A program made the position numbers and the translations under genes. Below, piece after piece: positions 5,963 through 59,647 of a stretch of 64,000 bases of DNA. Below the pieces are notes generated by a model, which was not told the DNA's origin, searched no databases, and saw only the letters and a list, made by a program, of their open reading frames with translations. Source of the stretch: Artocarpus heterophyllus (Eukaryota; Streptophyta; Magnoliopsida; Rosales; Moraceae); contig CM046347.1 of NCBI GenBank assembly GCA_025403435.1, forward strand, positions 23,696,597-23,760,596. The letters run 5' to 3'. Position 1 is the stretch's first letter. Every line of letters begins with the position of its first letter.

Positions 5963-7601
5963 CACAGCTTTTATATAAATTTACGAGTTTGTGATCATGT
6001 TATATGCATAAATTTTGTGATCTTAATCTCTCCTGTGCTTGAATTTAATTTTATAAAGAGTTGGCACTCTAGGATTCTATATAATTATATGTTGCCATGG
6101 ATTATGTGGTGAATGTTTATTAATTAATTATGGTTGATTAAATCGTTGTTTAATTATTAATTAATTTATATTGGTTATGGTTCCTTAGAGGTTAGAATGT
6201 GTATCTAGGTTTTTCATGTAATTAGATGGCGGACTATCATCTCCGTCTAGGAATTATTATTCATTTTAAATTAGTAAGAATTTTGTAATTAAATAATTAT
6301 TTAGAGAAGACGGATTTAGAAGATTGATGATGATGCTCATAGGTATTTCCTGAGTCTCTAATTTTATGTTTTTGAATTGTTGAAAATAAAATTGATAAAT
6401 TGCTTTAAAATTGTATTTTTTGGAATGGAGATTTCTGCTCGGTCGGCATGCCGAACATCACAGTTCAACAGGTTGATGGTCATAGATCGGCAGACCGAAC
6501 GTGTGGTTTGGCAGGCCGTCAGTGGGACAGAAATCGCCTAGCTCTGCCGGCAGGTCAAACTTTCATGGGTCGGTAGGTCAATCTTCCTGATCGGCGGGCC
6601 GATGGAGCATGACCGGCAGCCTATCACCCAGATCGACTTGCCAACCGAGAGTTGGAAAATTTTCAGAAAAGGTGTAGTTTTAATTTTATTTTTGGGATAA
6701 TTCTGAGAAACATTAAATTTGGATATGACCAAAAATATGAAGTGTTGAATTCATACAAGATTAAAGACTTGAAGATGGAATTACATGAAGAAGGATACAA
6801 CTTGAGGATTCAAGGATGAAGAATCGATAATATGTCTCGATTATTCTCTTATAATCTTAGTTTTCTATTTTCTAGGGTGGAGCCATAATATTACGGTTAT
6901 ATATTATTTTGCTTGTGGCTTTGCTTGATTGCTTTGCTTGTCTACATTATAATATGATTTGCCATGTCTATTGATAACATGTCATATAGAATAGGGAGTG
7001 CCGCTCATATTAAAATTGGTCATGCATATTCTTAAAATAAAACCTTGATTTCAAAAGATTGAGTGGGAGAAGGTTTTCGAAGAGAGAACCTAAGGCCTCC
7101 ATCGTTGGTCGATAGGCAGAACATGGTGGTCCCGACCCCTAGGAAGGGATTTCTATCATGTACCAGATTGGATCTCTGAGAGGATAAGGTATTTTAGCAT
7201 AATTTATGGTTGCACACCCCTAGGTGGTGATTATAAATCATGGATAAAATATTAAAACGATGGTTATACACTCACATTAATTTGATTATTAACCTCCCCT
7301 AGGAGCTCTGTTAATAAAATTAATGACCAAAGAAACGATTATTAATAAATGCTGGATCATAAGAGTCTTGGATGACATATATTAATCAGGAGAGGATCTG
7401 TATTCCTGATTGAATTTGGCATGACTCCCGTAGGAGCTTGTTGAATTCTGAGTTGGGAATTATCGTTGTAAGGTTGTGATATTTTCAAGGTTTTGACACA
7501 TAAACACATTTGTATAATTTTTACGTAATTGTGTTATCTTACTAAATTATTATTATATGTTTTCTTATGTTTGGTATATGATTCTTTATTGTAGATTAAA
7601 A
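5963..7601 (+). other. Element A untranslated leader with near-palindrome cluster and hairpin array
   Basis: There is no gene in this 1.6-kb leader between PBS and gag. A cluster of GC-rich near-palindromes (GGTCGGCATGCCGAAC and relatives) lies at about 6438-6645. Further on is a set of inverted repeats with CCCCTAGG cores at 7136-7143, 7217-7224 and 7296-7303, and a mutated CCCGTAGG at 7427-7434. The arms TTATTAAC and GTTAATAA around 7296-7303 are perfect complements, as are AATCAGGA (7384-7391) and TCCTGATT (7404-7411). Confidence 0.75.
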
Positions 7602-16834: not shown

Positions 16835-19522
16835 ATGGAGCAACTCCTGAGCATGGGCTTCTCCGATAAATTAGCTGAGCAAGCCTTGTCGGCCACGGGC
16901 GGTGACTCCCCAACCAAAGCCATCGAATGGATTCTCAATCAACCCCAATTAAACGACACCAAAATTAACGTCGTATCAACCCTTGCTTCTGCTTCTTCTT
17001 CTGCTGTTGCTGCTGCTGCTCCAAAACAATCTCCTCATTCTTCTCAAGCCAATCTCCACCGCTTCTTCAACTTCCCATCTAAATGCCCCCAAAACGACGA
17101 CGTACCGACCCCTTCTCCTGATTCCTCTGCTCCCTCACCCACGCCCACGCCTCCCCAAAACGACATGCTCGCCACCCATTCCAAGAAGCGACTGAGGCTA
17201 TCCCCGCCGCCTCCGCCGTTGTCGGAGCGTATGCGGCCTCGAACCCTAGACGACGTCGTTGGGCAGGGGCACCTCCTCTCGTCCAAGTCTTCCCTCCTCC
17301 GCTCCGCCGTGGACCGCGGCCGTCTCCCTTCACTCGTTCTGTGGGGCCCACCCGGGTCCGGCAAGACCTCCATCGCCCGCGCCATCCTCGGATCTCTCTC
17401 TGTCTCCTCCTTCCGTTTCGTCTCCTTCTCCGCCGTCACCTCTGGCGTCAAGGACGTCAGGGACGCCGTCGACGAAGCGCGCCGCGTGAAGGCCAAGTCC
17501 AACACCACCACGCTCCTCTTCGTCGACGAAGTCCACCGCTTCAACAAGTCTCAGCAGGACTCCTTCCTCCCCATTATCGAAGACGGCAGCGTCGTCTTTG
17601 TCGGCGCCACCACCGAGAACCCTTCCTTCCACCTCACAACGCCCCTCCTCTCCCGCTGCCGCCTCCTCCTCCTCCAGCCCCTGCAGCCCCACCACTTGTC
17701 CTCATTGCTCCACCGCGCCGTCGACGATCCCTGCAACGGCATACGTGCAAGCGTGGGCGCGGTGCCCATCCGCGTCGATGACGACGCCATCCACTTCATT
17801 TCCAACAACTGCGACGGCGATGCTCGCGCCGCGCTCAACGCCTTGGAGATTGCGACCGTTGCTGCCGCCGCCTCATCGGCCCAAGACGCCGCAGTTGTTA
17901 TTGTCTCGTTGGAGGATGCCAAGGAGGCGTTGCAGTGCAAACATCTGGCTTATGACAAAGGAGGGGAAGAGCACTACAATTGCATCAGCGCGCTGCACAA
18001 GTCCATGAGGGGAAACGACGCCAATGCCGGAATCTATTGGCTGGCCAGGATGTTGGAAGGAGGGGAACAACCTCTATACATTGCTCGCAGGCTCATAAGG
18101 TATCACTCTAATAATAAGCACTTGTACCTGTAAATCTCTTTTTTAATGTTTGGTTTAATAATGGAAGAAAATTGGAATATGAACATTGGAATTTATTATG
18201 GGAATCGTGATTCTAGGTTTTTTTCGTTTGTTATTGAAAGGAAAAAACAATAACTGGTTTAACAAAAGTGCTTCTTATGTCTTTAAATTATTATCATTTT
18301 TTTTTTGATAAATATTAAGAGGTTTGAGAAGTGACTTAACACTTTGAACTCTTACACTTTTTTGTATTATTTATTATAGTTTGGCTTATTCGTTAATGGC
18401 TCGAGTTTCTGTTTGTTGAATTCTGGCCAACCTTAATTGTCACTAGTTTGAAGTGAAATTAGAATATGAATAGGAATTGGAGTTGACATCACACTGTGAT
18501 TATCGTGTTTCATTAGTTATTGAAATGTAACGAAATAACTCCTATTTTTATGGAATAATAATAACTATTTTGATAAGTGTACATAGTAATGTCTTCAGAT
18601 TAGAATAGTGGGAATGGTAATTTTAGAAAAATGTTTAGGATGTTTGAGAAGAAAAGAAAAAACCAACCCTGATTCTGATTTGTTAATCTTCAGCTTCTCC
18701 AATACAATAGCTAATAAAGGGATTAAAACCCACTCTGATGTAGAAGAAGATGACTTGTTGTTTGGCTAATTAAACAAAACGTCATACGAATACAAACTAG
18801 CTCTATAGGACCTGGAGAGTTGTGATTTTGGGAGATTTTTGGGATTGTATTTCTGAAGGAAAGAAACAGAGGCGCGCCTCTCTACCCTTCCGCCATGGAT
18901 GTGGTCTATTGCAGCGTCTTGCTACGTCACACTCACGCTAAATGATAACAATTTAACTACCAAGGTTACATGAACACTACACAAATAACAACAATGTGAA
19001 TATAAAAACGACTACCGTAACAAAATCTGCCTAGAACATGATCTATTAGTCTTTTCATTTAGTCTAACTTTGATTTTCCCTAATTTCTTTTGTTTTCTCT
19101 TTTTTGTATTTGTTCTTTTTATGAGGTTTGCGAGTGAGGATGTTGGATTAGCTGATCCATTGGCTCTGAATCAGGCAGTAGCCTGCTACCAAGCTTGCCA
19201 CTTCTTGGGAATGCCGGAGTGCAATGTGATTCTCGCTCAGTGTGTGGCTTACTTGGCGTTGGCTCCAAAATCTGTGGCCATTTATCGAGCCATCGGTGCT
19301 GCACAGAAGGCAGTGAAGGAATCAGACGGACAGAACGAGGGAGTTCCTTTGCATTTGAGGAATGCACCTACCAAGTTGATGAAGGAGATAGGGTATGGGA
19401 AGGACTACATTTATACTCCAGACAATCCCTCCGCCTTTCAAAGCTATCTCCCTCCCTCTCTTGAGGGACGCAAGTTTTTGGATTGGCCAACTTCTGATGA
19501 AACGCCATTGCATCGTTGTTGA
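16835..19522 (+). CDS. WRNIP1: WRNIP1/Mgs1/RarA-type AAA+ ATPase (exons 16835-18099 and 19126-19522)
   Basis: The spliced product is about 553 aa. Residues 1-36 form a UBA-like domain (MGFSDKLAEQAL, TGGDSPTKAIEWIL). A Ser/Pro-rich linker with a basic KKRLRLS patch follows. The AAA+ core has Walker A GPPGSGKT (171-178), Walker B DEVH (231-234), sensor 1 GATTEN (257-262) and sensor 2 GDAR (R331). The C-terminal MgsA-type part spans the splice junction (ARRLIR, then FASEDVGLADP) and ends near LPPSLEGRKFLDW. The family acts in the nucleus at stalled replication forks with ubiquitin-linked damage tolerance; that role is inferred from homologues. I start at 16835 because the UBA begins there; the ATG at 16772 is also in frame. 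Exon 1 is GC-rich, unlike its surroundings. It is the only intact host gene seen. Confidence 0.93.
18100..19125 (+). other. Intron of the WRNIP1-like gene
   Basis: A GT-AG intron of 1026 bp interrupts an Arg codon (AG at the end of exon 1, G at the start of exon 2). The donor is ATAAG|GTATCA and the acceptor is a T-rich tract ending ATGAG|G. Splicing restores RFASEDVGLADP, the conserved family junction. The intron is AT-rich and I see no gene or clear transposon in it. Confidence 0.9.
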
Positions 19523-26345: not shown

Positions 26346-28284
26346 TGTTATACATGATGCCTTAAGGAGTAAAATGTTGCAATATGTTTTTGGAGACATT
26401 TTATCAATAAAGAGTTTATTTATTATTCATATACCAAATATTGTCCTCTTTATGTTCATATCTGTTGAATATATGATAAGCAAACAAAAGTCTGAGACTA
26501 TCGGTCTAAACCTTAAAGAATCATGCATGTGATAGATAGATTATATAAAAGACATGAATCTTAAAGGTGATGGTCTAAATCATAAGATTCGCAATCAAAG
26601 GAATAAAGTTAGGCACTTTATTCATGCTAAGATTGTTATGTTGCCTACATCTCTAACGGGAGATGGCTTATCTTGGCAATCGGAGTGGGCCTTAACGAGT
26701 AGAAACATTGGTGCATTGTCGTAGGTGACAATGTATTGGATAAAGGACATAAAAGTTGAATTGATTTGGTTAATGATTCTGTTTGTGCAAATCAATTCAC
26801 TTTAGACAATCATATATGTTGTGTCTTAATCCTGAAATGACTAATGAGCCCGTTATCTTGACTTATGTCTTTTAATGTACCAAAGGTTTACATCCTGACT
26901 TAATGACGGTACGCATACCGGTACGTTGAAGTCATGACTCTTGATTGATGTAGACTCGTTATTCATATATATGGAATCCATAGCTCTTTTTGTAGAGTTA
27001 ATGATATTCTCTTATATGCGTTATCCTATAATTGGAAGACTGGTGCGCTTAACCATTTAGATACATAGATGTAACCGAATGGTATATTGTCTTTAAATAG
27101 TAAGTATTCCAATGGTGTGATAATGGAACATAAGATAAAAATAATCAGGAAGGTATATTATCCTTAAGCCGATTATGAATATCCTATGGGGATGTAACAC
27201 ATTATGATATGTCATGGACGGTTAGTTTATTGAAACTTTGTAATTTTATATAATTCGAGAGTACAGCTTTAAGCTTTTAGTGGAGTAGTGTTAGAGTTGA
27301 TAATTGTAAAATATATATCTATGATATTGTATTTTATAATTATAGGAGCTTGAACTATATATGTCCATCGAGTCTCCTTTGTTAGCTCATAATAAATCTT
27401 GTAACGATACGGCATGCCTTTCTTGCATATTAGTGACTTATGTTAAATTATTAGATTGGCTGAAATTCGATAAAGATTAGATTTAATAATTCATGTTAGT
27501 TTATCGGTTGACTTAATTTTATAAATTGATTTAAGATAAACGTGTTGAATTATTTGGATAATATTTTATTTTCTATGAGATTATTCAGATATGATTGTTT
27601 TGATCGGATAACTTTTCTATTGGGTTATTTGAATTAAAATTGAGGCTCTATCTAAGAATCTTAGGTGGAAAATAAGATATTCTTAGGGATCAAATTATCG
27701 TAAGTTCGACAGGCCAATTTGTTAGTTTGGCCTGCTGATAGAGTAAGTTGGCAGGCTAAGAGATCGGCCCACTGACCGTGCAATAATCTATATACGCGTT
27801 TTAGATGCGTTTTTCGTTAGAATTTGATCTAGATTCAAATTTTGAGGTCTTATTTGATATGGATTAACCTTAGATTCAACCACTATAAATAGGGGGTGAG
27901 TTTTCTCATTTATTGAAATCTGTTGAGAAGTATAGAGTTCATACTCTAGTGTGAGAAACTCTAAAACTCCTTGAGAACTATTGTTCAATATCAAGAACTT
28001 AGTTCTAGGTCTTCTCAAGTGGTTGGAAGGAGAGTCACTAAAGGAAGAGCTATACGACAAGTGACGACCCATACTCCGATAATGGATAGAGAATAGCAAA
28101 AAAGAGCAGTTAATTGAGGCTGTTCTAGAACATTCTTCTCTACACAGATTTGAGTGCACTTCGGTATTCAAAAGAGGTTAGTAAGATATATCATTGATTT
28201 ATGTATATAACATGTCTAACTTGTCTTTTGGAAAATATTATTATTTTATTTTTTAAAATTTTGTTGCATACTTATTTTCTAACA
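26346..28284 (+). mobile_element. Solo LTR F of the dominant copia family, inserted in the SIRE-like element
   Basis: A 1939-bp LTR runs from TGTTATACATG to TCTAACA. The flanks ATAAC (26341-26345) and ACAAC (28285-28289) form a duplication with one mismatch. No PBS or PPT of its own adjoins it. TATA is near 27882 (CTATAAATAGGGGG). The near-palindromes are decayed (about 27700-27775), so the copy is old. Confidence 0.85.
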
Positions 28285-28550
28285 ACAACATGCACTCAAA
28301 GTAATAAGCAATCAATCATATCTTCTCCCCCTTTGTCATCAATAAAAAAAAGAGACAAAAATTGGAGCATTGAACTCATAATCAAACATGAAGCTAAAAT
28401 TCCATAAAAAACCGCAAAAAGATAAATAATCTAAAGTAAAAATCCTAAAATGGTCTTAAAATTGAGGAAAAAAATAAACCTAAAGCATAAAACAACCAAA
28501 AATATAAAAGAGAAACAAAACTAAAAAACAAATCAAGACAAAGGTGGTCC
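28285..28550 (-). other. SIRE-like element: 3' spacer, proximal part
   Basis: This is an untranslated segment with CTCCCCCTTTGTCATC at about 28325-28340, which reads GATGACAAAGGGGGAG in element sense, a hallmark of the region after the last SIRE ORF. The sequence GCACTCAAAGTAATAA occurs here (about 28292) and on the other side of solo LTR F (about 26327). Confidence 0.6.
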
Positions 28551-33949: not shown

Positions 33950-35591
33950 CATGGTTTTTACATAAATTTATGACTTTGTGATCATGCTATATGTATAGAT
34001 AATATAATCTTGATCTCTCCTATGCTTGAATTCAATATTTTAGAGAGTTGGCATTCTAGGGTTTCTATATATTTATATGTTGTCACGGAATTCTATGGTG
34101 AATGTTATTAATTAATTATGGTTGATTAAATTATATTTAATTAATTAATTTATGCCAGTTATGATTCATTAGAGGTTAGAATGTGTATCTAGGTTTTTCA
34201 TGTAATTAGATGGTGGTCAATCATCATCGTCTAGGAATTATTATTTAATTTTAAAGTTGTAAAAATTTTGTAATTAAATAATCATTCGAAGAAGACGGAT
34301 TTAGGAAATGGATGATAACATTCCACAGGTATTTCTTAAGTCACTAATTTTTATGTTTTTGAATTGTTGAAAATAAGATTGAAAAACTGCATAAGAACTG
34401 TATTTTTGGAAATCATGATTTCTACTCGGTCGGGAAGCCTATGGTCATAGACCGACAAGCTGAAACTCTAAGATCTACAGGCCGTCAGCAGAGCAGAATT
34501 CTGATGGCTCTAGCAAAAGGCTGAACTTGTAAGTTTGGTAGCCAATCTGTCATGACTGTAGACCAAACCATGAGGTTTGGTAAGCCAAAGGGTCATGACC
34601 AGTAGGCCGATCACACAAATCAGCATGCCAACAGAGAGTTGTGTTTTTTCAAAAAAAGATGCATTTTTCGGTGTAGTTTTGATTTTATTTTTGAGACAAT
34701 TTTGAGAAACATTAAGTTTGGATTTGACCAAAAATATGGAGTATTCGATCTATGTAGGATTGAACACTTGAAGATGGATAATCCATGAAAAAGGATACAA
34801 TTTGATGATTCAAAGATGAAGAATCGATAATATGTTTCAATTGATCTCTTGTAATCTTTGCTTTCTTTTCTCTAGAGTGGAACCATAATATTATGGTTAT
34901 TTATTATTATTTTGCTTGTAACTTTGCATATTGCTTTACTTGTCTGCATTATAATATGATTTGCTATGTATGTTGATAACATGTTATATAGAATAGGGCT
35001 CATAAAAAATTGTTCATGTATGTCTTTTAAAATAAAACCTTGATTTCAAAAGATTAAGTGGGAGAAGGTTTTCAAAGAGAGGACTGACGGCCTCCATCGT
35101 TGGTCCATAGGTAGCACATGGTGGTTTCAACCTTGGGTAGGGACTTCATCATGTACCAAGTTGGATCTCCGAAAGGATAAGGTTTTTTAACATGATTTAT
35201 CGTTGCACACCCCTAGGAGGTGATTAAAAATCATGGATAAAATATTAAAACAGTAGTTATACACTCATCTTAATTTATTATTAACCTCCCCTAGGAGCTC
35301 TGTTAATAAAATTAACAGAAAAAGAAACAATTATTAATATATGCTGGATCAGACGGGTCCTAGATGGCATATATTAATCAAGAGGGGATCCGTGTTCTTG
35401 ATTAAATTTTGCAAGTCTGCCCTAGGCGGCTTGTTGAATTCTGAGTAGGGAATTATCATTGTTAGGTTGTGATTTTTTTCAAGGTTTTGTCACATAAAGC
35501 ATTGTATGTTTTACATAATTGTGTCATCTTACTAAAGGTTTATGGCATGTTTGCTTATGTTTGGTATATAATTCTTTATTGTAAATTAAAA
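33950..35591 (+). other. Element E untranslated leader
   Basis: There is no gene. The near-palindrome cluster at about 34425-34640 is heavily decayed. Hairpin cores remain at about 35211-35221 (CCCCTAGGAGG), 35289-35296 (CCCCTAGG within TTATTAAC and GTTAATAA arms) and near 35421 (GCCCTAGGCGG). The arms AATCAAGA (35376-35383) and TCTTGATT (35396-35403) pair perfectly and differ from element C at a matching base in each arm. Confidence 0.7.
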
Positions 35592-37407: not shown

Positions 37408-38282
37408 TGTTAGACATGTACGCCCTAAAGAGTAAAAATGTAATACGTTTTTGAAAACATTTTTATCAATAGAGAATTTATTCATTTATATATACCAAAT
37501 CTTGTCCTCTTTACGTTCATATTTATTGAATGTATATTAAGCAAACAGTAGTCTGAGACTGTCAGTCTAAACCTTAAGAATTGGGCATATGATGGACTGA
37601 TTATGCGAAAGACACGATTCTTAAGGTGACGGTCTAAAACATATGATCCGCAATCGAGGGAATAAAGTTGGGCGCTTTATTCATGCAAAGATTGTTATAT
37701 TGTCTATATCCCTTTTGGGAGATGGTTTGTCTTGACCATCAGAGTTGGACTCAGTGAATAGAAACATTGGCATGTTGTCATAGGTAACGATGTGTTGGAT
37801 CGGGACATAAAGTGAATTGATTTGGATTAATAATTCTGTCTTGGCAAATTGATTCACTTTAGACAATCATTTGTATTATATCTTAATCCTGAGATGAATA
37901 GTGGGCCCGTTGTCTTGACTTGTATCTTTTGATGTACCAAAGGGTGACTCCCACATCTCAACAGTGGTATGCATGCCGGTACGTTGGAGGCATAACTCTT
38001 GATAGCGTAGACTTATTATTCATAGATATAGAATCCATAGCTCCTCTTTAGGAATAATGATATCCTCTTATATGCATTGTCATGTAATTGAAAAACTGGA
38101 GCATTCAACCATTTGGATACATAGGTATAACCAAATGGTATACTATCTTTGGATGGTAAGTTTTCTGATGGTAAGATAATGGAACGTAAGATAAAAATAA
38201 TCAGGAAGGTAAGACAGAACTTGTCCTTAAGCTGATTATGGATTTTCATATGGGGATACGATACACTTTGATATGTCATGGA
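37408..38282 (+). repeat. Element B 5' LTR, first part
   Basis: The LTR begins TGTTAGACATGTACGCC at 37408, in the integrase of element E (preceding pentamer GTTAG), and runs 875 bp until element C interrupts it. It resumes at 47983. The summed length of 2023 bp equals the solo LTR S1. Confidence 0.93.
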
Positions 38283-40314
38283 TGTTGGAAACAAAGTGCG
38301 CAGCGGAATTTTAAAATTTTTCATCAGAGTATTTTCCAAAACACAAGTTTGACATGTTATATGTATAAATTAAACAGATCTTACTAACCTCAGTGTGCCG
38401 AAGAACCTCCGCGACCTGTGTAGAGAAGTAACGTTCCAGAAGAGCCTCAACCAACTGGTCTTCTTTGCTATTCTCTATCCACAACCGGAGTGAGTGTGGG
38501 CTCACACGTACAGCTCTTCCACCGGTGACTCTCCTTCCAACCAATAGAGAGAACCCAAAGCTAGTGTTCGTAATTTGTGAACAAAAGCTCTCAGGGAGTT
38601 TTCAGATGCTCACTAGAAGAGTATCACTCTTAATCTCTCAAATTGATCTGAGTAAATCATTAGACTCACTCCCTTTTTATACCTATTGGTCCTTGGGGTC
38701 AGTCCATATCAGATTAGGTCTCAAAAATCGAAACAGAATCAAGTTCGGATCAATATCTGATAAGATACGCGTGAAAAACGCGTAATCTTAACTGTCGCGG
38801 TCGGCATGCCGAACTGTGTGATAGGCAGGCCGAACTGACCAGTTCGGCAGGCCGAACACGTCATCCGGCATGCCGAACTGCCGAGAAAAAATATCCGCGA
38901 ATCTTTTATTTTCCACCCGAGATTCTAAAGGATAAAGTCTCAGTTTTGATTCAAATAGCCCAATAGAAAAGATATCTGATCAAAACAAACTTTATCAAGA
39001 TAATCTCTAAGAAAATAAATCAATTCACAATAATTCTACAAGTTTATCTTGTTCTAATTGTCCAAAATTAAAACAACCGATAAACAGACAAGAATTATCC
39101 GAACGCCATAATTCAACAAGTTCATCTTGAACTAATTTCTTACATAATTAATTCAACCGATAAACAGACATGAATTATTTGATTCTTATAAATTTTAAAC
39201 CAATCTGATAAATCCGACATAAGTCACCAATTATTGGAAAAGCACGTCGTGTCGTTACAGGATTTTGTGAGCTAGCAAAGGGGACCAAAATGGACCTATA
39301 AAGTTCAAGCTCATGATAATTATGAAACCCAATATCCCAGATATATATTTCACAATTATCAACTCCAACGCTACTCCACTAAAAGCTTGGAACTGCACTC
39401 TCGAACTTTATAGAATTACGAAGCTCGTGTAGCTAAGTCTCCATGACATATCATAGTGTATCGCATTCCCATATGATCATCCATAATCGGCTTAAGGACA
39501 AGTTCTGTCTTACCTTCCCGATTATTTTTATCTTACGTTCCATTGTCTCACCATTAGAAAACTTACCATCCAAAGATAGTATACCATTCGGTTACACCTA
39601 TGTATCCAAATGGTTGAGCGCTCCAGTTTTCCAATTACAGGACAACGCATATAAGAGGATATCATTACTCCTAAAGAGGAGCTATGGATTCCATATCTAT
39701 GAATAACAAGTCTACGCTACCAAGAGTCATGCCTCCAACGAACCGGCATGCATGCCACTATAGAGATGTGGGAGTCACCCATTGGTACATCAAAAGACAC
39801 AAATCGAGACAACGGGCCCATTATTCATCTCAGGATTAAGATACAATACAAATGATTGTCTAAAGTGAATCTATTTGCCAAGACAGAATTATTAATCCAA
39901 ATCAATTCACTTTATGTCCCGATCCAACACATCGTCACCTATGACAACGCGCCAATGTTTCTATTCACGGAGTCCAACTCCGATGGCCAAGACAAACCAT
40001 CTCCCAAAAGGGATATAGACAACATAACAATCTTTACATGAATAAAGCGCCCAACTTTATTCCCTCGATTGCGGATCATATATTTTAGACCATCACCTTA
40101 AGAGTCATGTCTACGGCATAATCATCCCATCATATGCCCAACTCTTAAGGTTTAGACTGACAGTCTCAGACTACTGTTTGCTTATCATACATTCAACAAA
40201 TATGAACGTAAAGAGGACAATATTTGGTATATATAAATGAATAAATTCTTTATTGATAAAAATGTCTCCAAAAACGTATTTCATTTTTACTCCTTAGAGC
40301 ATACATGTCTAACA
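38283..40314 (-). repeat. Element C 3' LTR
   Basis: 2032 bp, TGTTAGACATG...CCAACA in element orientation. Differences from the 5' LTR that I saw include C/T near 38600, T/C near 39248, A/G near 39393, and two changes in the segment at about 40105-40120. Confidence 0.96.
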
Positions 40315-40326
40315 ATCTCCCACTTG
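40315..40326 (-). other. Element C polypurine tract
   Basis: ATCTCCCACTTG on the plus strand is CAAGTGGGAGAT in element sense. It lies directly upstream of the 3' LTR and two bases after the pol stop codon. Confidence 0.9.
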
Positions 40327-40328
40327 CA

Positions 40329-43300
40329 CTAAGTGAGTAAATACTGCAAATTTCGCATCCCCATAGCTTCCACATGCCTTTCGAAGACTCTCCCAGAAAG
40401 TGTCTTCGTAAATGGATCAGCTAAATTGTCCTCTGACGCGATCTTGCACACCGTGACATGCCCGCTCTCAACGAAGTCCTTTATCACATGATACTTCCGA
40501 TCAATATGCTTACTCTTCTTGTGAAATCTTGGTTCCTTAGCATTAGCTACCGCCGCACTGTTATCACAGTACAGTGATACCGCTTTATCCACACCAGGAA
40601 CTACCTCAAGATCCCCAAGGAACTTGCGGAGCCACATTGCTTCTTTTGAAGCATCACTAGCCGCCACATACTCGGCCTCCATCGTTGAATCCGAAGTGCA
40701 ATCTTGCTTCGCACTTCTCCAACTGATGGCACCGCCACCCAGAGTAAACACAAACCCCGATGTCGATTTCCTAGAATCCAGGCAGGATTGAAAATCCTAA
40801 TCAGTGTATCCTAGAGGAGTTAAATCCTCACCCGAATACACAAGCATATACCCTCGAGTCCTTCTTAGGTACTTGAAAATATGCTTTACCGCAACCCAAT
40901 GGTTCGGTCCTGGATCCGCCTGAAATCGACTCACAATCCCGACCGCATAGCTAATATCCGGTCGAGTGCAAAGCATGGCATACATGAGACTACCTACTGC
41001 CGAAGCATAAGGTACCTTCTTCATGTATTCTCTTTCTTCATAAGACTTTGGAGAGTCTTTCTTAGAAAGAGTAATTCCAGACCTAGATGGTTGCCCACCT
41101 TTCTTGGAATCCTGCATTGCAAACCTCCTGAGAATTTTATCTATGTAGCTGGCCTGTGACAAAGCTATCATTTTGTTCTTCCTATCCCGAAAGATCTGGA
41201 TACCGAGAACAAAATTAGCCTCACCCAAGTCCTTCATGTCAAACTGCTTGGTCAACCATAATTTGACAGATGACAACGCCCCAACGTCATTGCCAATTAG
41301 CAGAATGTCATCTACATAGAGTAGTAGAAAAACCACCTTCCCATTCTTAATGTGTTTGTAAACACATGGTTCATCCATATTTTGTGAGAACCCATAAGTC
41401 TTGATCACTTGATCAAATCTTATGTTCCAAGAACGAGAAGCCTGCTTAAGTCCATAAATTGACTTTAGCAGCTTACAAACCTTACCCTCTTGACCCATGA
41501 CCTTGAACCCGTCTGGTTGTTCCATATAAATGGACTCATCAAGATAGCCATTCAGAAAAGCCGTCTTGACATCCATCTGCCAAATCTCGTAGTCGAGAGC
41601 GGCAGCTATGGACAAGAGAATCCGGATGGACTTAAGCATGGCTACAGGCGAAAAGGTTTCCTCATAATCGATTCCTTCCTTTTGCGTATAACCCTTAGCT
41701 ACCAGTCTAGCCTTAAAGGTTTCGACCTTTCCATCCACTCCTCTTTTCCTCTTGTAGATCCACTTACACCCTATGGGTTTTACCCCTTCGGGAAGATCCA
41801 CAAGCTCCCAGACCCGATTAGTCTCCATAGACTTCATCTCAATGTTCATGGCCTCTGTCCAGAGTCTTGAATCAACATCCTCCATAGCTTCTGCGTAAGT
41901 ATAAGGATCCCTGTCATGTTCATCCGGTTCAGCCAAAAAGACCTCCCCATTGAACATATACCTCTCAGGTTGACGCCCGATCCTCCCACTACGCCGAAGC
42001 CCCTGAGGTTGTTGTTCAGGTTTGTTTGGTTTTTCTACACCGATCGGAATGGTTTCGTTCGGAACCTCCGGAGTAAACGGATTACCCCTCAACTCCTCAA
42101 GCACCACTTTGCTTTGAGGTTTAAAGTCGTTCATGTAACTCTCCTCAAGGAAAGTTGCATTAGTTGAAACCACGACTTTATTTTCCTTTGGGTTATAAAA
42201 ATAACCCCCTTTAGTCCCTTTTGGATATCCTACAAACACGCAAACTTCTGAACGTGCTTCCAACTTATTCGGATCCTTAAACAGGACATGAGCTGGACAT
42301 CCCCATATGCGAATATGGTTTAAGGATGTCTTCCGTCTTGTCCACAACTCGTGAGGAGTTTTAGGGACCGATTTTGAAGGCACATTGTTCAAAAGATAAC
42401 ATGCGGTTTGTAGTGCATATCCCCAAAAGGATAAAGGCAATGATGAATAACTCATCATGGACCGAATCATGTCCAACAAAGTCCTATTCCTTCTCTCTGC
42501 TACGCCATTCTGCTGCGGAGTGCCCGGCGCAGTCAAATGGGAGAAAATCCCATTCTCTAACAAGTGTCCCAAGAACTCATCAGAAAGGTATTCCCCACCT
42601 CGATCAGATCGAAGTGCCTTTATAGGTCTACCCAATTGCTTTTCCACTTCAGCCCGAAACTCCCTGAACTTATCATAAGTTTCGCTTTTGTGGTGCATTA
42701 GGTACACATACCCATATCTTGAGTAATCGTCAATAAAAGTAACGAAGTACTCATACCCTCCTCGTGCCCGGATGTTCATCGGTCCGCAAACATCACTATG
42801 CACAAGTTCTAGAACCCCTTCGGCCCTATTGCCCTTAGACCCGTATGGTCTTTTGGTCATTTTACCCTCCAAACAAGACTCACATTGAGGTATAGATTCC
42901 ACCTTTAAGTGACTTAAAGGTCCATCCCTTACCAACCTTTGAATCCTATTTAGGTTAATATGGCCAAGGCGCAAATGCCAAAGATAAGTCTTATTAGAGT
43001 GAGAAGTTTTAAGTCTTTTTGAGTCATTATCATTTATCTCAGCATTAAGCAATAGGTCCATCTTAGGTTTGATAAAATATAGATTATTTTGCATCCATCC
43101 AGAACAGATAAAAGATTTGTTTTTACGAATCACCACTTTTTCATTAAAAGATACCACGTAGGAGTCTTTAAATAAAGAAGATACAGAAATTAAATTCCTT
43201 TTAAATTTAGGAACATAAAAACAATCTCGCAAAATTAAACTCCTATAATTATCAAAATAAAGATGGATATCTCCCACTGCTTTCGCTGAGACCAAGGATC

Positions 43301-44282
43301 CATCGCCCATCCGAAGCGTTAAGTCTTCACGAAGTAGACTTCTCGTTTCTTTGAATCCCTGCAGAGAAACACAAACATGATTAGTTGCACCGAAATCTAT
43401 GACCCAAATGTCACTGGATTCCTCAACCAAACAAGTTTCTAAATATAGAAGATCACACCTACCTCCCTTGGAAAGGAAGTCTTTGCAATGCTTCTTTATA
43501 TGCCCGACCTTACCACAAAAGAAGCACTTAAGCTTCTTTGGGTTCTTCTTCTTCTTCTTCTTGCTCTTGGTAGCAATAGGAATAGAAGACTTCCCTCTTT
43601 TGGCCCGTTGCTTCTTTCCATTCCCAGAGTTAGGATTGGAACCAGAAGCAGCTACCATATTGGCCTCTCCACCAGCAGGAGACTCCCTGATCAGCAGTTC
43701 AAACTCTTGTAACTGTTTCATCAGTTCTGTCAAGGTCATATCCCGTCTATTGCTTAGATTAAAAGTAGCTCTAAATGGAATAAATTCCTTAGACAGAGTC
43801 TCAAAGACCATAGTCATCTGAGTTTCAGCATCGATGTCGGCTCCATTGGTTTGAGCCTCAGCGAGGTAACCCATGACCAACATCATGTGCTCCTTTACAG
43901 ATGTCCCCGGTCTCTGTCTATAGTTTAAGAGTTTCCGAAGCGCCCCTTGCCGCTTTGTTATGGCCTGGCCTCCAAACATGTCCTCAAGATTATCCAAGAT
44001 CTGCTTCGCAGTCTCATAATCCTGATGTTGAGCCTGCAGCACGTTATTCATGCTAGCCATAACATAGCAGCGGGCCTGATCATTAGCATCTTTCCAGCGG
44101 TCGTACGCTTGGAATTGCTCATTACTTGAGTCTCCCGTAGGCTCGGGAGGACAAGGAGTTGTCAGAACATATTTCAGTTTCTCAAAGGAAAGGACGATGT
44201 CCAGGTTCCGTTTCCAATCATTATAGTTCTCACCGGTTAATTGGTTTTTGTCAAGTATCGATGATAAAGCGTTTTTAGACAT
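40329..44282 (-). CDS. Element C gag-pol polyprotein, one premature TAG at codon 1162
   Basis: The start is [15 protein letters not shown] at 44282; an upstream in-frame ATG at 44354 is not conserved in context. The order is gag (1-230), a lysine-rich stretch with CCHC knuckle [15 protein letters not shown], protease with DFG where relatives have DSG, GAG-pre-integrase (WHLRLGHIN...CESC), and integrase ([21 protein letters not shown] carrying the D,D,E residues). RT follows ([31 protein letters not shown]), then RNase H ([24 protein letters not shown]). The frame is open except TAG at 40799-40797, between GYTD and DFQSC, where relatives have a Ser codon. It would make gag, integrase and RT but a truncated RNase H, and the altered protease motif should block processing. 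Confidence 0.95.
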
Positions 44283-44433
44283 TTTCAATCTACAATAAAG
44301 AATCATATACCAATCATAAGCAAACATATATAATAATTTAGTAAGATAACACAATCATGTAAAATCATACAAATGTGTTTATGTGTCAAAACCTTGAAAA
44401 TATCACAACCTTACAATGATAATTCCCAACTCA

Positions 44434-44761
44434 GAATTCAACAAGCTCCTAGGGGAGTCATGCCAAATTCAATCAGGAACACGGATCCCCTCCTGATTAA
44501 TATATGCCATCCAGGACCCGTATGATCCAGCATATACTAATAATCGTTTCTTTGGCCATTAATTTTATTAACAGAGCTCCTAGGGGAGGTTAATAATAAA
44601 ATTAACGTGAGTGTATAACCATCGTTTTAATATTTTATCCATGATTTATAATCACCACCTAGGGGTGTGCAACCATAAATCATACTAAAATACCTTATCC
44701 TTTCAGAGATCCAATCTGGTACATGATAGAAATCCTTTCCTAGGGGTTGGGACCATCATGT
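44434..44761 (-). other. Array of inverted repeats with CCCCTAGG cores upstream of gag
   Basis: In order from gag: 44434-44470 (arms GAATT/AATTC, longer with G-U pairs in RNA; core CTCCCCTAGGAG), 44471-44498 (AATCAGGA/TCCTGATT), 44501-44536 (TATATGC/GCATATA), 44565-44596 (TTATTAAC/GTTAATAA, core CTCCCCTAGGAG), 44641-44683 (ATGATTTAT/ATAAATCAT, core CACCCCTAGGTG) and 44721-44761 (ACATG/CATGT with inner TCCC/GGGA, core CCCCTAGG). The arms are seen directly; folding and function are inferred. Confidence 0.7.
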
Positions 44762-45253
44762 TCTTCCTATGGACCAACGATGGAGGCCTTAGGTTCTCTC
44801 TTCGAAAACCTTCTCCCACTTAATCTTTTGAAGTCAAGGTTTTATTTTAAAATTATGCATGAACAATTTTAATATGAGCGGCACTCCCTATTCTATATGA
44901 CATGTTATCAATATACATGGTAAATCATATTATAATGCAGACAAGCAAAGCAATCAAGCAAAGCTACAAGCATAATAATAATAATAACCGTAATATTATG
45001 GTTCCACCCTAGAGAATAGAAAAACTAAGATTACAAGAGAATAATCGAGACATTTATCGATTCTTCATCCTTGAATCCTCAAGCTGTATCCTTCTTCATG
45101 TAATATCCATCTTCAAGTCCTCAATCCCATATGAATCGAACACTTCATATTTCCGGTCATATCCAAATTTAATGTTTCTCAGAATCGTCCCAAAAATAAA
45201 ATTAAAACTGCACTTGAAAAATCGCACCTTTTCTGGACACCTGGCAGCTCTCG

Positions 45254-45441
45254 GTCGGCAGGCCGATCTAGGTGATCGGCCTACCGATCATGGAGGTTCG
45301 GCCTGCCGAACATGAAGGTTCGGCCTGCCGGCAGAGCACCAAAATTTCTGCCCCACTGTCGGCCTGCCGGACCGTACGTCCGGCCTGCCGATCTGTGACC
45401 TTCGGCCTGCCGAACTGTGAGGTCCGGCATGCCGACCGAGC
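45254..45441 (-). repeat. Leader cluster of TCGGCNNGCCGA near-palindromes
   Basis: About eight copies of a 12-14 bp motif, such as TCGGCAGGCCGA, TTCGGCCTGCCGAA, TCCGGCCTGCCGA and CCGGCATGCCGA, are spaced 15-30 bp apart. Most have two or more CpG. The motif recurs in the LTR upstream of TATA. Confidence 0.85.
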
Positions 45442-45931
45442 AGAAAACCCTCAATCCAGAAAATACAATTTTAATGCAATTCATCAATTTTATTTTCAAC
45501 AATTCAAAAACATAAAATTAGAGACTCAGGAAATACCTGGAGGCGCTATCATCTATCTTTAAGTTCCGACTTCTTGTTCCATCTTCTCCGAATAATTATT
45601 TAATTACAAAATTCTTACAAATTAAAAATTAAATAATAATTCCTAGACGGAGATGATAGTCCGCCATCTAATTACATGAAAAACCTAGATACACATTCTA
45701 ACCTCTAAGGAACCATAACCGGTATTAATTAATTAAAAATTAAACAACAATTTAATCAACCATAATCAATTAATAAACATTCACCATATAATCCATGACA
45801 ACATATATATTATATAGAAACCTAGAGTGCCATCTCTCTATAAAATTTAATTCAAGCATTGGAGAGATTAAGATCACAAAATTTATGCATATAACATGAT
45901 CACAAACTTGCAAATTTATGTAAAAACCTCA

Positions 45932-45943
45932 GCTCTGATACCA
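45932..45943 (-). other. Element C primer binding site
   Basis: GCTCTGATACCA is TGGTATCAGAGC in element sense, two bases from the LTR. It is a perfect initiator methionine tRNA complement. Confidence 0.94.
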
Positions 45944-45973
45944 ATTGTTGGAAACAAAGTGCGCAGCGGAATT

Positions 45974-46207
45974 TTAAAATTTTTCATCAGAGTATTTTCC
46001 AAAACACAAGTTTGACATGTTATATGTATAAATTAAACAGATCTTACTAACCTCAGTGTGCCGAAGAACCTCCGCGACCTGTGTAGAGAAGTAACGTTCC
46101 AGAAGAGCCTCAACCAACTGGTCTTCTTTGCTATTCTCTATCCACAACCGGAGTGAGTGTGGGCTCACACGTACAGCTCTTCCACCGGTGACTCTCCTTC
46201 CAACCAA
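45974..46207 (-). CDS. Possible 77-codon sense ORF in R/U5 of element C
   Basis: The ORF begins MVGRRVTGGRAVRVSPHS and continues LVEALLERYFSTQVAEVL. It starts about 100 nt downstream of the expected transcription start and ends shortly before the LTR end, so it would be an upstream ORF on the genomic RNA. It is identical in the 3' LTR (38544-38311) and largely open in other LTRs (3635-3856, 13216-13506, 48896-49078). I recognise no domain. It may simply be conserved nucleotide sequence. Confidence 0.3.
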   Translation of the reverse strand: MVGRRVTGGRAVRVSPHSLRLWIENSKEDQLVEALLERYFSTQVAEVLRHTEVSKICLIYTYNMSNLCFGKYSDEKF

Positions 46208-46336
46208 TAGAGAGAACCCAAAGCTAGTGTTCGTAATTTGTGAACAAAAGCTCTCAGGGAGTTTTTAGATGCTCACTAGAAGAGTATCACTCTTAATCTC
46301 TCAAATTGATCTGAGTAAATCATTAGACTCACTCCC

Positions 46337-46344
46337 TTTTTATA
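46337..46344 (-). promoter_or_regulatory. TATA box of element C
   Basis: TATAAAAA in element sense, within TATAAAAAGGGAGTGAG. It lies about 390 bp from the LTR end, so U3 is about 1.65 kb and R plus U5 about 0.37 kb. The start site itself is inferred. Confidence 0.72.
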
Positions 46345-46462
46345 CCTATTGGTCCTTGGGGTCAGTCCATATCAGATTAGGTCTCAAAAATCGAAACAGA
46401 ATCAAGTTCGGATCAATATCTGATAAGATACGCGTGAAAAACGCGTAATCTTAACTGTCGCG

Positions 46463-46550
46463 GTCGGCATGCCGAACTGTGTGATAGGCAGGCCGAACTG
46501 ACCAGTTCGGCAGGCCGAACACGTCATCCGGCATGCCGAACTGCCGAGAA
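46463..46550 (-). promoter_or_regulatory. U3 cluster of TCGGCNNGCCGA near-palindromes, 120-215 bp upstream of TATA
   Basis: Four copies (GTCGGCATGCCGAAC, GGCAGGCCGAAC, TTCGGCAGGCCGAAC, CCGGCATGCCGAAC) lie in 88 bp. TCGGCATGCCGA is a perfect 12-bp palindrome. An identical set is in the 3' LTR (about 38798-38885) and mutated sets are in every other family LTR. The position fits transcription factor sites; this role is inferred. Confidence 0.65.
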
Positions 46551-47982
46551 AAAATATCCGCGAATCTTTTATTTTCCACCCGAGATTCTAAAGGATAAAG
46601 TCTCAGTTTTGATTCAAATAGCCCAATAGAAAAGATATCTGATCAAAACAAACTTTATCAAGATAATCTCTAAGAAAATAAATCAATTCACAATAATTCT
46701 ACAAGTTTATCTTGTTCTAATTGTCCAAAATTAAAACAACCGATAAACAGACAAGAATTATCCGAACGCCATAATTCAACAAGTTCATCTTGAACTAATT
46801 TCTTACATAATTAATTCAACCGATAAACAGACATGAATTATTTGATTCTTATAAATTTTAAACCAATCTGATAAATCCGACATAAGTCACCAATTATTGG
46901 AAAAGCACGCCGTGTCGTTACAGGATTTTGTGAGCTAGCAAAGGGGACCAAAATGGACCTATAAAGTTCAAGCTCATGATAATTATGAAACCCAATATCC
47001 CAGATATACATTTCACAATTATCAACTCCAACGCTACTCCACTAAAAGCTTGGAGCTGCACTCTCGAACTTTATAGAATTACGAAGCTCGTGTAGCTAAG
47101 TCTCCATGACATATCATAGTGTATCGCATCCCCATATGATCATCCATAATCGGCTTAAGGACAAGTTCTGTCTTACCTTCCCGATTATTTTTATCTTACG
47201 TTCCATTGTCTCACCATTAGAAAACTTACCATCCAAAGATAGTATACCATTCGGTTACACCTATGTATCCAAATGGTTGAGCGCTCCAGTTTTCCAATTA
47301 CAGGACAACGCATATAAGAGGATATCATTACTCCTAAAGAGGAGCTATGGATTCCATATCTATGAATAACAAGTCTACGCTACCAAGAGTCATGCCTCCA
47401 ACGTACCGGCATGCATGCCACTATAGAGATGTGGGAGTCACCCATTGGTACATCAAAAGACACAAATCGAGACAACGGGCCCATTATTCATCTCAGGATT
47501 AAGATACAATACAAATGATTGTCTAAAGTGAATCTATTTGCCAAGACAGAATTATTAATCCAAATCAATTCACTTTATGTCCCGATCCAACACATCGTCA
47601 CCTATGACAACGCGCCAATGTTTCTATTCACGGAGTCCAACTCCGATGGCCAAGACAAACCATCTCCCAAAAGGGATATAGACAACATAACAATCTTTAC
47701 ATGAATAAAGCGCCCAACTTTATTCCCTCGATTACGGATCATATATTTTAGACCATCACCTTAAGAGTCGTGTCTACCGCATAATCATCCCATCATATGC
47801 CCAACTCTTAAGGTTTAGACTGACAGTCTCAGACTACTGTTTGCTTATCATACATTCAACAAATATGAACGTAAAGAGGACAATATTTGGTATATATAAA
47901 TGAATAAATTCTTTATTGATAAAAATGTCTCCAAAAACGTATTACATTTTTACTCCTTAGAGCATACATGTCTAACAATGGA

Positions 47983-49130
47983 GACTTAGCTGAACGAGTT
48001 TCGTAATTCTATAATGTTCGAGAGTGCAGCTCCAAGCTTTTAGTAGAGTAGCGTTGGAGTTGATAATTGTGAAATGTATATCTGGGATATTGGGTTTCAT
48101 AATTATCATGAGCTTGAACTTTATAGGTCCATTTTGGTCCCCTTTGCTAGCTCACAAAATCCTATAATGACACAGCGTGCTTTTTCAATAATTGATGACT
48201 TACATTGGATTTATCAGATTGGTTTAAAATTTGAAAGAATCAAATAATTCATGTCTGTTTATTGGTTAAATTAATTTTGTAATAAAATTAATTTAAGATA
48301 AACTTGTTGAATTATTGGGATCAGATAATTCTTGTCTTTTTATCAGTTGACTTAATTTTGGATAAATTAGATCAAGATAAACTTGTAGAATTATTGTGAA
48401 TTGATTTATTTTCTTAGAGATTATCTTGATAAAGTTTGTTTTGGTCAAATAACTTTTCTATTGGGCTATTTGAATCAAAACTGAGACTTTATCCTATAGA
48501 TTCTCGGGTGAAAAATAAAAGATTCGTGGAGATATTTATGCAGGAGTTCGGCCTGCCGAATGACGTGTTCGGCTTGCGATGGGGCATGTTCGGCCTCCCA
48601 ATCAGCGAGCGATAAGATTACATGTTTTCACGCGGATCTTATTAGATATTGATCCGAACTTGATTCTGTTTCGAGTTTTTGAGACCTAATATGATAAGGA
48701 CTGACCCCAGGACCAATCGCTATAAAAAGGGAGTGAGTCTCATGATTTACTCAGATCAATTGAGAGATTAAGAGTGATACTCTTCTGGTGAGCATCTAAA
48801 AATTCCTTGAGAGCTTTTGTTCACAAATCACGAACACTAGCTTTGAGTTCTCTCGATTGGTTGGAAGGAGAGTCACCGGTTGAAGAGCTGTACATGTGAG
48901 CCCACACTCACTCCGATCGTGGATAGAGAATAGCAAAGAAGACCAGTTGGTTAAGGCTCTTCTGGAACGTTACTTTTCTTCACAGGTCGCGGAGGTTCTT
49001 CGGCACATAAAGGTTAGTAAGATCTGTTTAATATATACATATAGCATGTCAAACTTGTGTTTTGGAAAAATACTCTGATGTTAAAATTTCTAAAATTTTT
49101 GTTGCGTACCTCACACTGTTTTTTCCAACA
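47983..49130 (+). repeat. Element B 5' LTR, second part
   Basis: The LTR resumes after the duplicated ATGGA and continues 1148 bp to TTTCCAACA. GC-rich near-palindromes lie at about 48547-48605, TATA near 48721 (GCTATAAAAAGGGAG), and the R/U5 frame at about 48860-49078. Confidence 0.93.
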
Positions 49131-49144: not shown

Positions 49145-50806
49145 CATGGTTTTACATAAATTTACAAGTTTGTGATCATGTTATATGCATAAATTTTGTG
49201 ATCTTAAACTCTCCTATGCTTGAATTTAATTTTATAGAGAGTTGGCACTCTAGGTTTCTATATAATTATATGTCGTCATGAATTATGTGGTAAATGTTAA
49301 TTAATTATGGTTGATTAAATCGTTGTTTAATTAATTATTAATTAATTAATTTATATCGGTTATGGTTCCTTAGAGGTTAGAATGTGTATTTAGATTTTTC
49401 ATGTAATTAGATGACGGACTATCATCTCTGTCTAGGAATTATTATTTAATTTTAAATTTGCAAGAAGTTTGTAATTAAATAATTATTCAGAGAAGACGGA
49501 ACTAGAAGACGGATCTCGAAGATTGATGATGGCGCTCCTAGGTATTTCCCGAGTCTCTAATTTTATGTTTTTGAATCGTTGAAAATAAAATTGATGAATT
49601 GCATTAAAATTGTATTTTCTAGAATGGGAGATTTCTGCTCGGTCGGCATGCTGGACCTCGTAGTTTGGCAAGCCGATGGTCACAGATTGACAGGCCGGAC
49701 GTATGGTTCGGCAGGCCGACAGTGGGGCAGAAATCGGCTGGCTTTGCCGACAGGCCGAACTTCCAGTTCGGCATGCCGATCTTTTTGATCAATAGGCCGA
49801 TGAAACATGACCGGCAGGCCGATCACCAAGATCGCCCTGCCGACCGAGAGCTAGAAAATTTCCAGAAAAGGTGCAATTTTTCAATGCAGTTTTAATTTTA
49901 TTTTTGGGACGATTCTGAGAAACATTAAATTTAGATTTGACTAGCAATATGAAGTATTTGATTCATACGAGATTGAAGACTCAAAGATAGGCATTGCATG
50001 AAGAATGATGCAACTTGAGGATTCAAGGATGAAGAATTGATATATGTCTCGATTATTCTTTTGTAATCTTATTTTTTTATTCTGTAGGATGGAACTATAA
50101 TATTACGGTTGTTATTATTTTGCTTGTAGCTTTGCTTGATTGCTTTGCTTGTCTGCATTATAATATGATTTGCCATATATATTGATAACATGTCATATAG
50201 AGTAGGAAGTGCCGCTCATATTAAAACTATTCATGCATAATTTTAAAATAAAACCTTGAGTTCAAAAGATTGAGTGGGAGAAGGTTTTCAAAGAGAGAAC
50301 CTAAGGCCTCCATCGTTGGCCCATAGGCAGAACATGGTGGTCCCGACCCCTAGGAAGGGATTTCTATCATGTACCAGATTGGATTCTGAAAGGATAAGGT
50401 ATTTTAGTATGATTTATGGTTGCACACCCCTAGGTGGTGATTATAAATCATGGATAAAATATTGAAACAATGGTTATACACTCACGTTAATTTTATTATT
50501 AACCTCCCCTAGGAGCTCTGTTAATAAAATTAATAGCCAAAGAAACGATTATTAATATATGCCGGATCATACGGGCCCTGGATGGCATATATTAATCAGG
50601 AGGGGATCCGTGTTCTGATTGAATTTGGCATGACTCCCCTAGGAGCTCGTTAAATTCTGAGTTGGGAATTATCGTTGTAAGGTTGTGATATTTTCAAGGT
50701 TTTGACACATAGACACATTTGTATGATTTTACATGGTTGTGTTATCTTACTAAATTATTATATGTTTGCTTATGTTTGGTATATGATTCTTTATTGTAGA
50801 TTGAAA
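49145..50806 (+). other. Element B untranslated leader
   Basis: There is no gene. The near-palindrome cluster is at about 49638-49850. Hairpin cores CCCCTAGG are near 50347, 50427, 50507 and 50636, all four retained. The inverted arms TTATTAAC and GTTAATAA again flank the third. Confidence 0.78.
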
Positions 50807-58287: not shown

Positions 58288-59647
58288 TTTTAATCTATAA
58301 TAAAGAATCATATATCAAACATAAGTAAGCATACCAAAATAATTTAGTAAGATAACACAATCAAGTCAACATACAACTGTGTTTATATGTCAAAACCTTA
58401 AAAATATCACAACCTTACAACAATAATTCCCAACTCAAAATTCTACAAGCCGCCTAGGGGAGACTTGCCAAATTCAATTAGGAACATAGATCCCCTTCTA
58501 ATTATTATATGCCATTCAGGACCCGTATGATCCAGCATATATTAATAATCGTTTCTTTAGCCATCAATTTTATTAACAGAGCTCCTAGGGAGGTTAGTAA
58601 TAAAATTAACATAAGTGTATAACCATAGTTTCAATATTTTATCCATGATTTATAATCACCACCTAGGGGTGTGCAATGATAAATCATACAAAAATACCTT
58701 ATCCTTTTGGAGATTTAATCTGGTACATGATGAAGTCCTTTCTTAGAAGTCGGAACCACCTTGTGCTACCTATGGACGAACGATAGAGGCCGTAGGTCTT
58801 TTCTTCAAAATCCTTATCCCACTCAATCTTTTGATATCAAAGTTTTATTTAAAAAACATGCATGAACAATTTTTAATGAGTGGCACCCCTTATTCTATAT
58901 GACATGTTATCAACATGCATGAAAAATCATATTATAATGCAGACAAGCAAAGCAATTATGCAAAGCCACAAGCAAAATAATAATAAATAGCCATAATATT
59001 ATGATTCTACCATAGAGAAAAGAAATTAAAGATTACAAGAGATTAAACAAAACATATTATCGATTCTTCATCATTGAATCTTGAAGTTGTATCCTTTTTC
59101 ATGTATTATCTATCTTTAAGTCTTCAATCCTACGTAGATTAAATACTCCATACTTCCAGTCATATCCAAATTTAATGTTTCTCAGAATTTTCCTAAAAAT
59201 AAAATCAAAACTGCAACGAAAAATGCGCCATTTCTTAAAAACACAACTCTCTTCGACATGCCGATTTGTGTAATCGGCCTACCAATCATAAACCATCAAC
59301 CTGCCAAACTTGGCAGTTTACCTGCCGCCAAAGCTAGCTAAATATTGCTCCACTACCGAACTAGAGGTTCGGCCCTCCGGTCTGCGACCATCAGCCTGCC
59401 AAACCTGAGGATTTAGCCTACGGACTAGCATAAATTAATTAATTAATTAATAAATAAATAATAATTTAATTAACCATAATTAATTAATAAACATTCACTA
59501 TATAATTCCATGACAACATATAAAAATATAGAAACCCTAGAGTGCCAACTTTTCAAAAAAATTAAATTCAAGCATAGGAGAGATCAAGATCATATAATTT
59601 ATATGTATAGCATGATCACAAACTTGTAAATTCAGGTAAAAACTATG
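58288..59647 (-). other. Element D untranslated leader
   Basis: There is no gene. CCTAGGGG-type cores remain at about 58451-58460 and 58662-58670, with a damaged one at about 58584. The arms AATTAGGA (58476-58483) and TTCTAATT (58496-58503) are changed together relative to element C. The near-palindrome cluster is decayed (about 59255-59430), and a deletion follows near 59430, joined to an ATTAATTAATTAA run. Confidence 0.7.

Follow-up and report, generated by a model that had tools for sequence, protein, structure and literature searches.

A hairpin array with repeated, family-differing tips in the leader of a plant copia retrotransposon: a possible packaging signal

Copia element C, found with its sister copies A, B, D and E in a 64,000-nt stretch of Artocarpus heterophyllus contig CM046347.1 (hereafter the window), carries an array of predicted RNA hairpins in its long untranslated leader, close to gag. 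Four of these hairpins end in the same tetraloop, and in a distant relative four hairpins at matching places likewise share a tip, but a different one. We see an even chance that the array is a structured RNA domain of plant copia genomic RNA, serving as a multivalent packaging signal read by a trans-acting protein, likeliest the element's own Gag. An earlier note on this DNA had proposed a dimerisation or packaging signal. The packaging half of that proposal is the best available reading because of the position between primer binding site (PBS) and gag, the fold of the sense-strand RNA, the selection on pairing and the repetition of identical tips; dimerisation through CCTAGG is unsupported.

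Results

Element C and its surroundings

Element C (Table 1) has the marks of a copia LTR retrotransposon: an LTR pair with TSD, a PBS (TGGTATCAGAGC, which we take to be of the initiator-tRNA-Met type) and, in one frame with gag, integrase (493-590) ahead of RT (823-1062). The Gag, integrase and RT domains share this frame, which opens with the gag ATG at 44282. The LTRs begin with TG, end with CA and are 99.5% identical across 2034 nt in a self-alignment; C is a young copia element. Among the best 120 of 7884 matches to its RT, the nearest named ones are from Acer, Citrus, Cucumis and Vitis (75-84%), and others reach up to 90% identity.

C is seemingly nested in the 5' LTR of B (37408-38282 and 47978-49130), an insertion within the same family. 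At 26346-28285 lies an LTR-like copy that has no internal sequence next to it. Amid the copia copies, a host-like reading frame on the plus strand (16772-18133) encodes UBA, AAA and MgsA-type C-terminal domains; it is presumably WRNIP1-like.

Table 1. Positions in the window of element C, the parts of its leader and the homologous arrays of the sister copies
Feature	Position	Strand	Remarks
Homologous array, element A	7121..7456	plus	3 exact cores
Homologous array, element D	35116..35449	plus	2 exact cores
Copia element C	38283..47977	minus	LTRs 38283-40314 and 45946-47977; TSD ATGGA on both sides
gag-pol reading frame of C	40797..44282	minus	Pfam Retrotran_gag_2, gag_pre-integrs, rve, RVT_2
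Untranslated leader of C	44283..45943	minus	1.66 kb, 48 upstream ATGs
Putative 125-nt intron, array to gag	44290..44414	minus	GTAAGG donor, TACTAA branch-like box 44338-44343, TTTATTGTAG acceptor
Hairpin H5	44436..44468	minus	tip CTCC-CCTA-GGAG, core 44448-44455
Hairpin H4b	44472..44497	minus	without core motif; two compensatory pairs within A-E
Hairpin H4a	44498..44539	minus	without core motif
Hairpin H3	44557..44607	minus	tip CTCC-CCTA-GGAG, core 44579-44586; strongest covariation
Linker H2-H3, ATGGTTATACACT	44610..44622	minus	identical in L001; one change (ATGGTAATACACT) in L003
Hairpin H2	44629..44694	minus	tip CACC-CCTA-GGTG, core 44658-44665
Hairpin H1	44721..44761	minus	core CCCCTAGG 44739-44746; apical stem CC/GG only
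Hairpin H0	44782..44816	minus	bipartite stem with asymmetric bulge; predicted fold and pair changes
Candidate upstream splice donor AG|GTATTTCC	45536..45537	minus	also in A and B; AG|GTATTTCT in D
Primer binding site TGGTATCAGAGC	45932..45943	minus	read from sequence
Homologous array, element B	50332..50665	plus	4 exact cores
Homologous array, element E	58430..58764	minus	2 exact cores

Predicted fold of the array

The 328 nt from 44761 to 44434, read on the minus strand as sense, fold to a predicted -102.2 kcal/mol (z -4.53), which none of 100 shuffles equals; the antisense of the same stretch gives z -1.25, equalled by 9 of 100. The earlier note had described about six stem-loops upstream of gag, four of them with a shared core at the tip, and this description agrees with the fold: six hairpins follow in series (H1, H2, H3, H4a, H4b and H5), and H1, H2, H3 and H5 carry CCCCTAGG. 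To these six the conserved set adds one further hairpin, H0. The four core-bearing hairpins present a CCUA tetraloop on a stem closed by CC/GG, extended to C(A/U)CC/GG(U/A)G at three of the four tips. The CTCC/GGAG or CACC/GGTG flanks that had been ascribed to the cores thus exist in H2, H3 and H5 but not in H1. Outer stems of the array hairpins have at most 12 perfect bp.

CCCCTAGG occurs 16 times in the 64-kb window against 0.93 expected, a number that none of 100 shuffles reaches. All but one of these sites (at 22820) lie inside the arrays of the five copies, namely four each in C and B, three in A and two each in D and E. The same four cores had been claimed for B and A, which is correct for B; in A three are exact and the fourth reads CCCGTAGG. 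Their partial retention in E and D was rightly noted. The MFE fold of the C array contains eight hairpin loops, four of them CCCTAG, and more than two alike are seen in 0 of 500 shuffles.

In 150-nt sense windows at the array, z falls to -5.4 in C, -4.1 in B, -4.9 in D and -3.2 in A, and the antisense windows of C lie at about -1 to +1. The array is favoured over shuffled sequence, which the note had made a condition of its proposal, and since the sense values are far more extreme than the antisense ones, the fold of the array is a property of the sense RNA. C thus has structured RNA between PBS and gag, as is expected of a psi-type signal. Other parts of the leaders contain windows of equal strength (B 49231, z -4.5; D 34536, z -4.4; D 34186, z -4.0). 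The GC-rich palindrome array of C (45245-45495) even exceeds the hairpin array, with z to -8.2 in sense and -7.3 in antisense, so that low energy alone does not distinguish the hairpins. Folded singly, the hairpins of C and of the two relatives L001 and L003 described below (n=12) give z between -3.50 and -0.41, mostly not extreme. A known Rfam family as the identity of the array was rejected, with no match at gathering score in the whole window.

The GC-rich palindromes (CGGC..GCCG, e.g. CGGCAGGCCG) occupy 45240-45450 in minus-strand sense and recur in the LTRs (38802-38875 and 46465-46538).

Conservation among the sister copies

Elements A-E align across the array with 93% mean column identity. 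In a leader profile of A-D (E, which lacks part of the leader, was left out) the array is among the best-conserved parts, with 85-92% mean pairwise identity in 100-nt windows, similar to gag; the GC-rich palindrome array changes fastest, with 54-69% mean identity. Four of 99 array pairs change on both sides in A-E, against 1.5 in shuffles, and 11 of 500 shuffles reach four. The proportion of paired cells (95.7% versus 95.2%; 38/500) does not go beyond shuffles, nor are there more pair types than in them (371/500). Covariation support within A-E alone, five close copies, is modest.

Counted strictly, as tetraloops on at least four unbroken pairs, three loops are alike in each of C, B and L001 (0/1000 shuffles each) and two in A (10/1000); D, E and L003 show no significant repeat by this count. 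The results for A, D, E and L003 speak against the packaging reading, as does the MFE fold of B, in which only three of seven loops are CCCTAG despite four exact cores.

Distant relatives share the array layout

A search with a 240-aa RT piece in one-per-species prokaryote genomes yielded five loci, four of them with 70-84% identity, which we presume to be plant contamination. Leader and gag are present in two, L001 and L003, which sit in assemblies labelled Streptomyces. L001 is 84% identical to C in RT and 45% in gag, L003 75% and 44%; in both, Gag diverges faster than RT. The Gags of C, L001 and L003 each have one CCHC knuckle after a Lys-rich stretch. The L001 contig (1-7560), which carries the label Streptomyces fumigatiscleroticus, contains a copia element of plant type in apparently circularly permuted order (PBS 7102, gag 1288); the contig is apparently a one-LTR circle or an assembly artefact.

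L001 aligns to the C leader from just before H0 across the array to the gag start (61%, E 2e-23). Its MFE fold has seven hairpin loops, four of which are CCAAAG, with more than two alike in 0 of 500 shuffles; the energy of the whole array is less extreme (z -2.14, 2/100 shuffles). CCAAAG followed by G or C occurs six times on the sense strand of the 7560-bp contig, four times within the array. The cores start at 84, 165, 244 and 375 in C and at 77, 163, 247 and 377 in L001, i.e. with spacings of 81, 79 and 131 versus 86, 84 and 130, and the four matching tips read CCUA in C and CAAA in L001. The case for H1, H2 and H5 in this comparison rests on position, spacing and tips, since the outer stems are too diverged to align.

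The array of L003 (z -4.06, 0/100 shuffles) has four hairpins tipped CCUUCG or CCCUUCG, and the four CCTTCGG sites of this locus all lie within it. Its H3 tip is unlike these four CUUCG-type tips. The H1-type hairpins of L003 look tandemly multiplied. At 1690-1980, a hairpin unit with the CCTTCGG core stands three times in tandem, which illustrates how arrays may grow.

As a background for loop repetition we used 1378 real 420-nt windows, drawn from both strands of the 64-kb window and of all five loci. Only the arrays of C and L001 reach four identical loops. Windows with at least three number 12, of which nine lie on the array sense strand of A, B, C, L001 and L003; of the others, two come from the antisense strand of B and one from elsewhere in L001.

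The other loci are less informative. L002 (RT 77%, 3.2 kb) has no match to C gag and L005 (RT 35%) is too distant. L004 (RT 70%) has a long region after the PBS in which no array was seen by eye (1300-4399), and none of its windows holds three or more loops alike; as its gag start was not located, this negative is not a clean one. No relative was found in the viral_contigs collection by gag or RT piece, among plasmids by leader DNA or among phages by RT piece. The RT piece matched four plasmid records. In the best two (79%) about 1.4 kb of the record lies 5' of RT, and from the match positions we judge the leader to be out of reach; one of them, of 4649 bp, has no gag domain in its protein.

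Pairing in H3 is under selection

When a model of H3 made only from A-E is run on the loci, L001 scores 40.2 bits (E 7.5e-6) and L003 29.2 bits (E 0.0018); L002, L004 and L005 give no hit at E up to 5. In the seven sequences (A-E, L001, L003), 11 of 18 H3 pairs change on both sides, which 0 of 500 shuffles reach. The alignment was fitted to the structure and so leans toward pairing; in it 94.3% of cells pair, and a slid partner gives at most five double changes. None of the four apical pairs changes on both sides. In H0, three of 12 pairs change on both sides (4/500 shuffles), as do three pairs when the partner is slid by one column, and the H2 model is not significant in L001 (E 0.14). The linker ATGGTTATACACT between H2 and H3 is nearly invariant in the three families, unlike the stems.

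Pairing is under selection, at least in H3. Maintained pairing of the kind expected of a psi-type signal is thus found at H3, more weakly at H0 and modestly within A-E alone. The covariation above a shuffled control on which the note had let its proposal depend is weak in the sister copies and becomes strong at H3 once the two distant relatives are added.

The inverted repeats are present on both strands and the same leader holds a second, GC-rich palindrome array, as would fit palindromes that act as DNA, for instance as protein binding sites or satellite-like repeats, without RNA function. We reject such DNA-only palindromes as highly improbable: the fold is sense-biased, pairing is kept through G-U pairs and double changes, and the common tip sits on outer stems that are unrelated to one another.

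The tips are not predicted to expose a conserved palindrome

According to the earlier note, CCTAGG loops of two RNAs would kiss and so start dimerisation of the genomic RNA. CCTAGG is indeed self-complementary and four copies would raise valency, and retroviral and Ty1 RNAs are described as dimerising through hairpins in passages of two papers (PMC5454406, PMC516450). Computed co-folding of isolated C tips gains -2.8 to -12.8 kcal/mol beyond two monomers, but two L001 tips likewise co-fold favourably (-2.8 and -6.1). The predicted loop is CCUA; the GG of CCTAGG lies in the stem with a pairing probability of at least 0.93 at all four C sites, leaving CCTA open, and the homologous tips of L001 read CAAA, which is not self-complementary. 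Neither the exposed self-complementary loop of a dimer initiation site nor its conservation in relatives is therefore found, and kissing through CCTAGG was discarded as a conserved mechanism. Dimerisation by the array is unlikely on these grounds; it may take place elsewhere in the RNA.

Splice-like signals and upstream ATGs

Putative splice signals flank the array. Those of the putative intron between array and gag (Table 1) lie at comparable distances in A, B, C and E, where E has the acceptor TTTATTATAG; their equivalents in L001 are GTAAGA, TACTAA and TTTTCAG. D has lost donor and acceptor, and a pattern search between array and gag of L003 found neither GTAAG nor TACTAA. GTAAG is present elsewhere in most leaders too. 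Some 1.25 kb upstream, A-C have a candidate donor, AG|GTATTTCC. Splicing from it would remove the array together with many upstream ATGs, so that the array would mark genomic RNA; leader splicing could in this way separate translated from packaged RNA. In many retroviruses, though not in all, psi is kept on the unspliced RNA and lost from the spliced form. Spliced isoforms are known from sunflower LTR elements (PMC7730604).

Counts of upstream ATGs in six full-length leaders (A, B, C, D, L001, L003) range from 43 to 49, and structure adjoins the gag start. Array and leader might accordingly bring ribosomes to gag past these ATGs by internal entry or shunt. We consider such a translation element improbable, for it leaves the identical, family-differing tips unexplained, and the intron-like signals offer an alternative way of shortening the leader.

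A host RNA-binding protein acting in export, localisation or splicing control would also suit identical tips that recur beside putative splice sites, and the structured CaMV leader is described as recruiting host export factors (PMC12786077). A conserved host protein should preserve the tip, however, and the tips differ among the three families compared, though their hosts may differ as well. To such a protein we give a low probability as well.

Discussion

The tips are identical within an element, different between elements, placed at matching positions and carried on outer stems that have drifted; this combination points to a single trans-acting reader. Gene conversion as the source of the tips would require about 12 nt to be carried between hairpins with unrelated stems. 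To our knowledge, CCUA and CAAA loops are not known as extra-stable tetraloops. The four tips would then offer one and the same binding site to a trans-acting protein, and that protein would vary from family to family. As the reader must differ, the element's own Gag or nucleocapsid would be the simplest candidate, because Gag differs between families and must find its own RNA. Multivalent recognition of the tips by Gag could select the genomic RNA into virus-like particles, and the family-specific tips suggest a tag by which the coat protein picks its own RNA. A host protein or a translation role could give the same tip pattern.

A more far-reaching version of the packaging reading is a plant copia 'loop barcode', in which four hairpins share one family-specific tetraloop that co-evolves with Gag, the tips switch together and particles pick their own RNA among the copia transcripts of the cell. 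We propose it tentatively and with less confidence than the packaging function itself; the comparison comprises three families (A-E, L001 and L003).

For plant LTR retrotransposons, the means by which an element selects its own genomic RNA seem to be largely unsettled. A review from 2025 on the host factors of these elements contains no mention of hairpin, stem-loop, dimeri- or psi, and where it treats packaging it names no cis-signal from plants (PMC12786077). Among the listed matches to literature on plant or copia leader hairpins, tetraloops and packaging signals, no title or abstract opening describes such an array, which is weak evidence that it is new. A repeated tip that varies by family offers a code of Gag-RNA recognition that is concrete and can be tested. 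Should the tips follow Gag in further families as well, genome sequence by itself could suffice to reveal RNA-protein co-evolution.

Among known systems, the barley elements BARE1 and BARE2 are likewise plant copia elements with stated conserved dimerisation and packaging signals, which BARE2 is said to keep; the passage describing them mentions no repeated array with identical tips (PMC3735527). Ty1 is a copia-type element too, and passages on it describe cis-acting packaging and dimerisation structures at its 5' end, where the TIPIRT domain contains a pseudoknot and kissing hairpins (PMC5454406, PMC4974528). Two Ty1 hairpins have complementary 7-nt motifs, whereas C has four identical tips, with loops that are not mutually complementary, in a 1.66-kb leader.

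The MLV packaging signal has a double-hairpin layout and a leader position. The GACG-tetraloop hairpins of MLV and RSV are the nearest analogue, as hairpins that share one tetraloop, and a packaging role is what we infer for C. GACG tetraloops are described as involved in alpha- and gammaretroviral packaging (PMC516450). Unlike in MLV and RSV, the array comprises four sites, belongs to plant copia elements, has loops that differ between relatives (CCUA and CAAA) and is predicted here from sequence.
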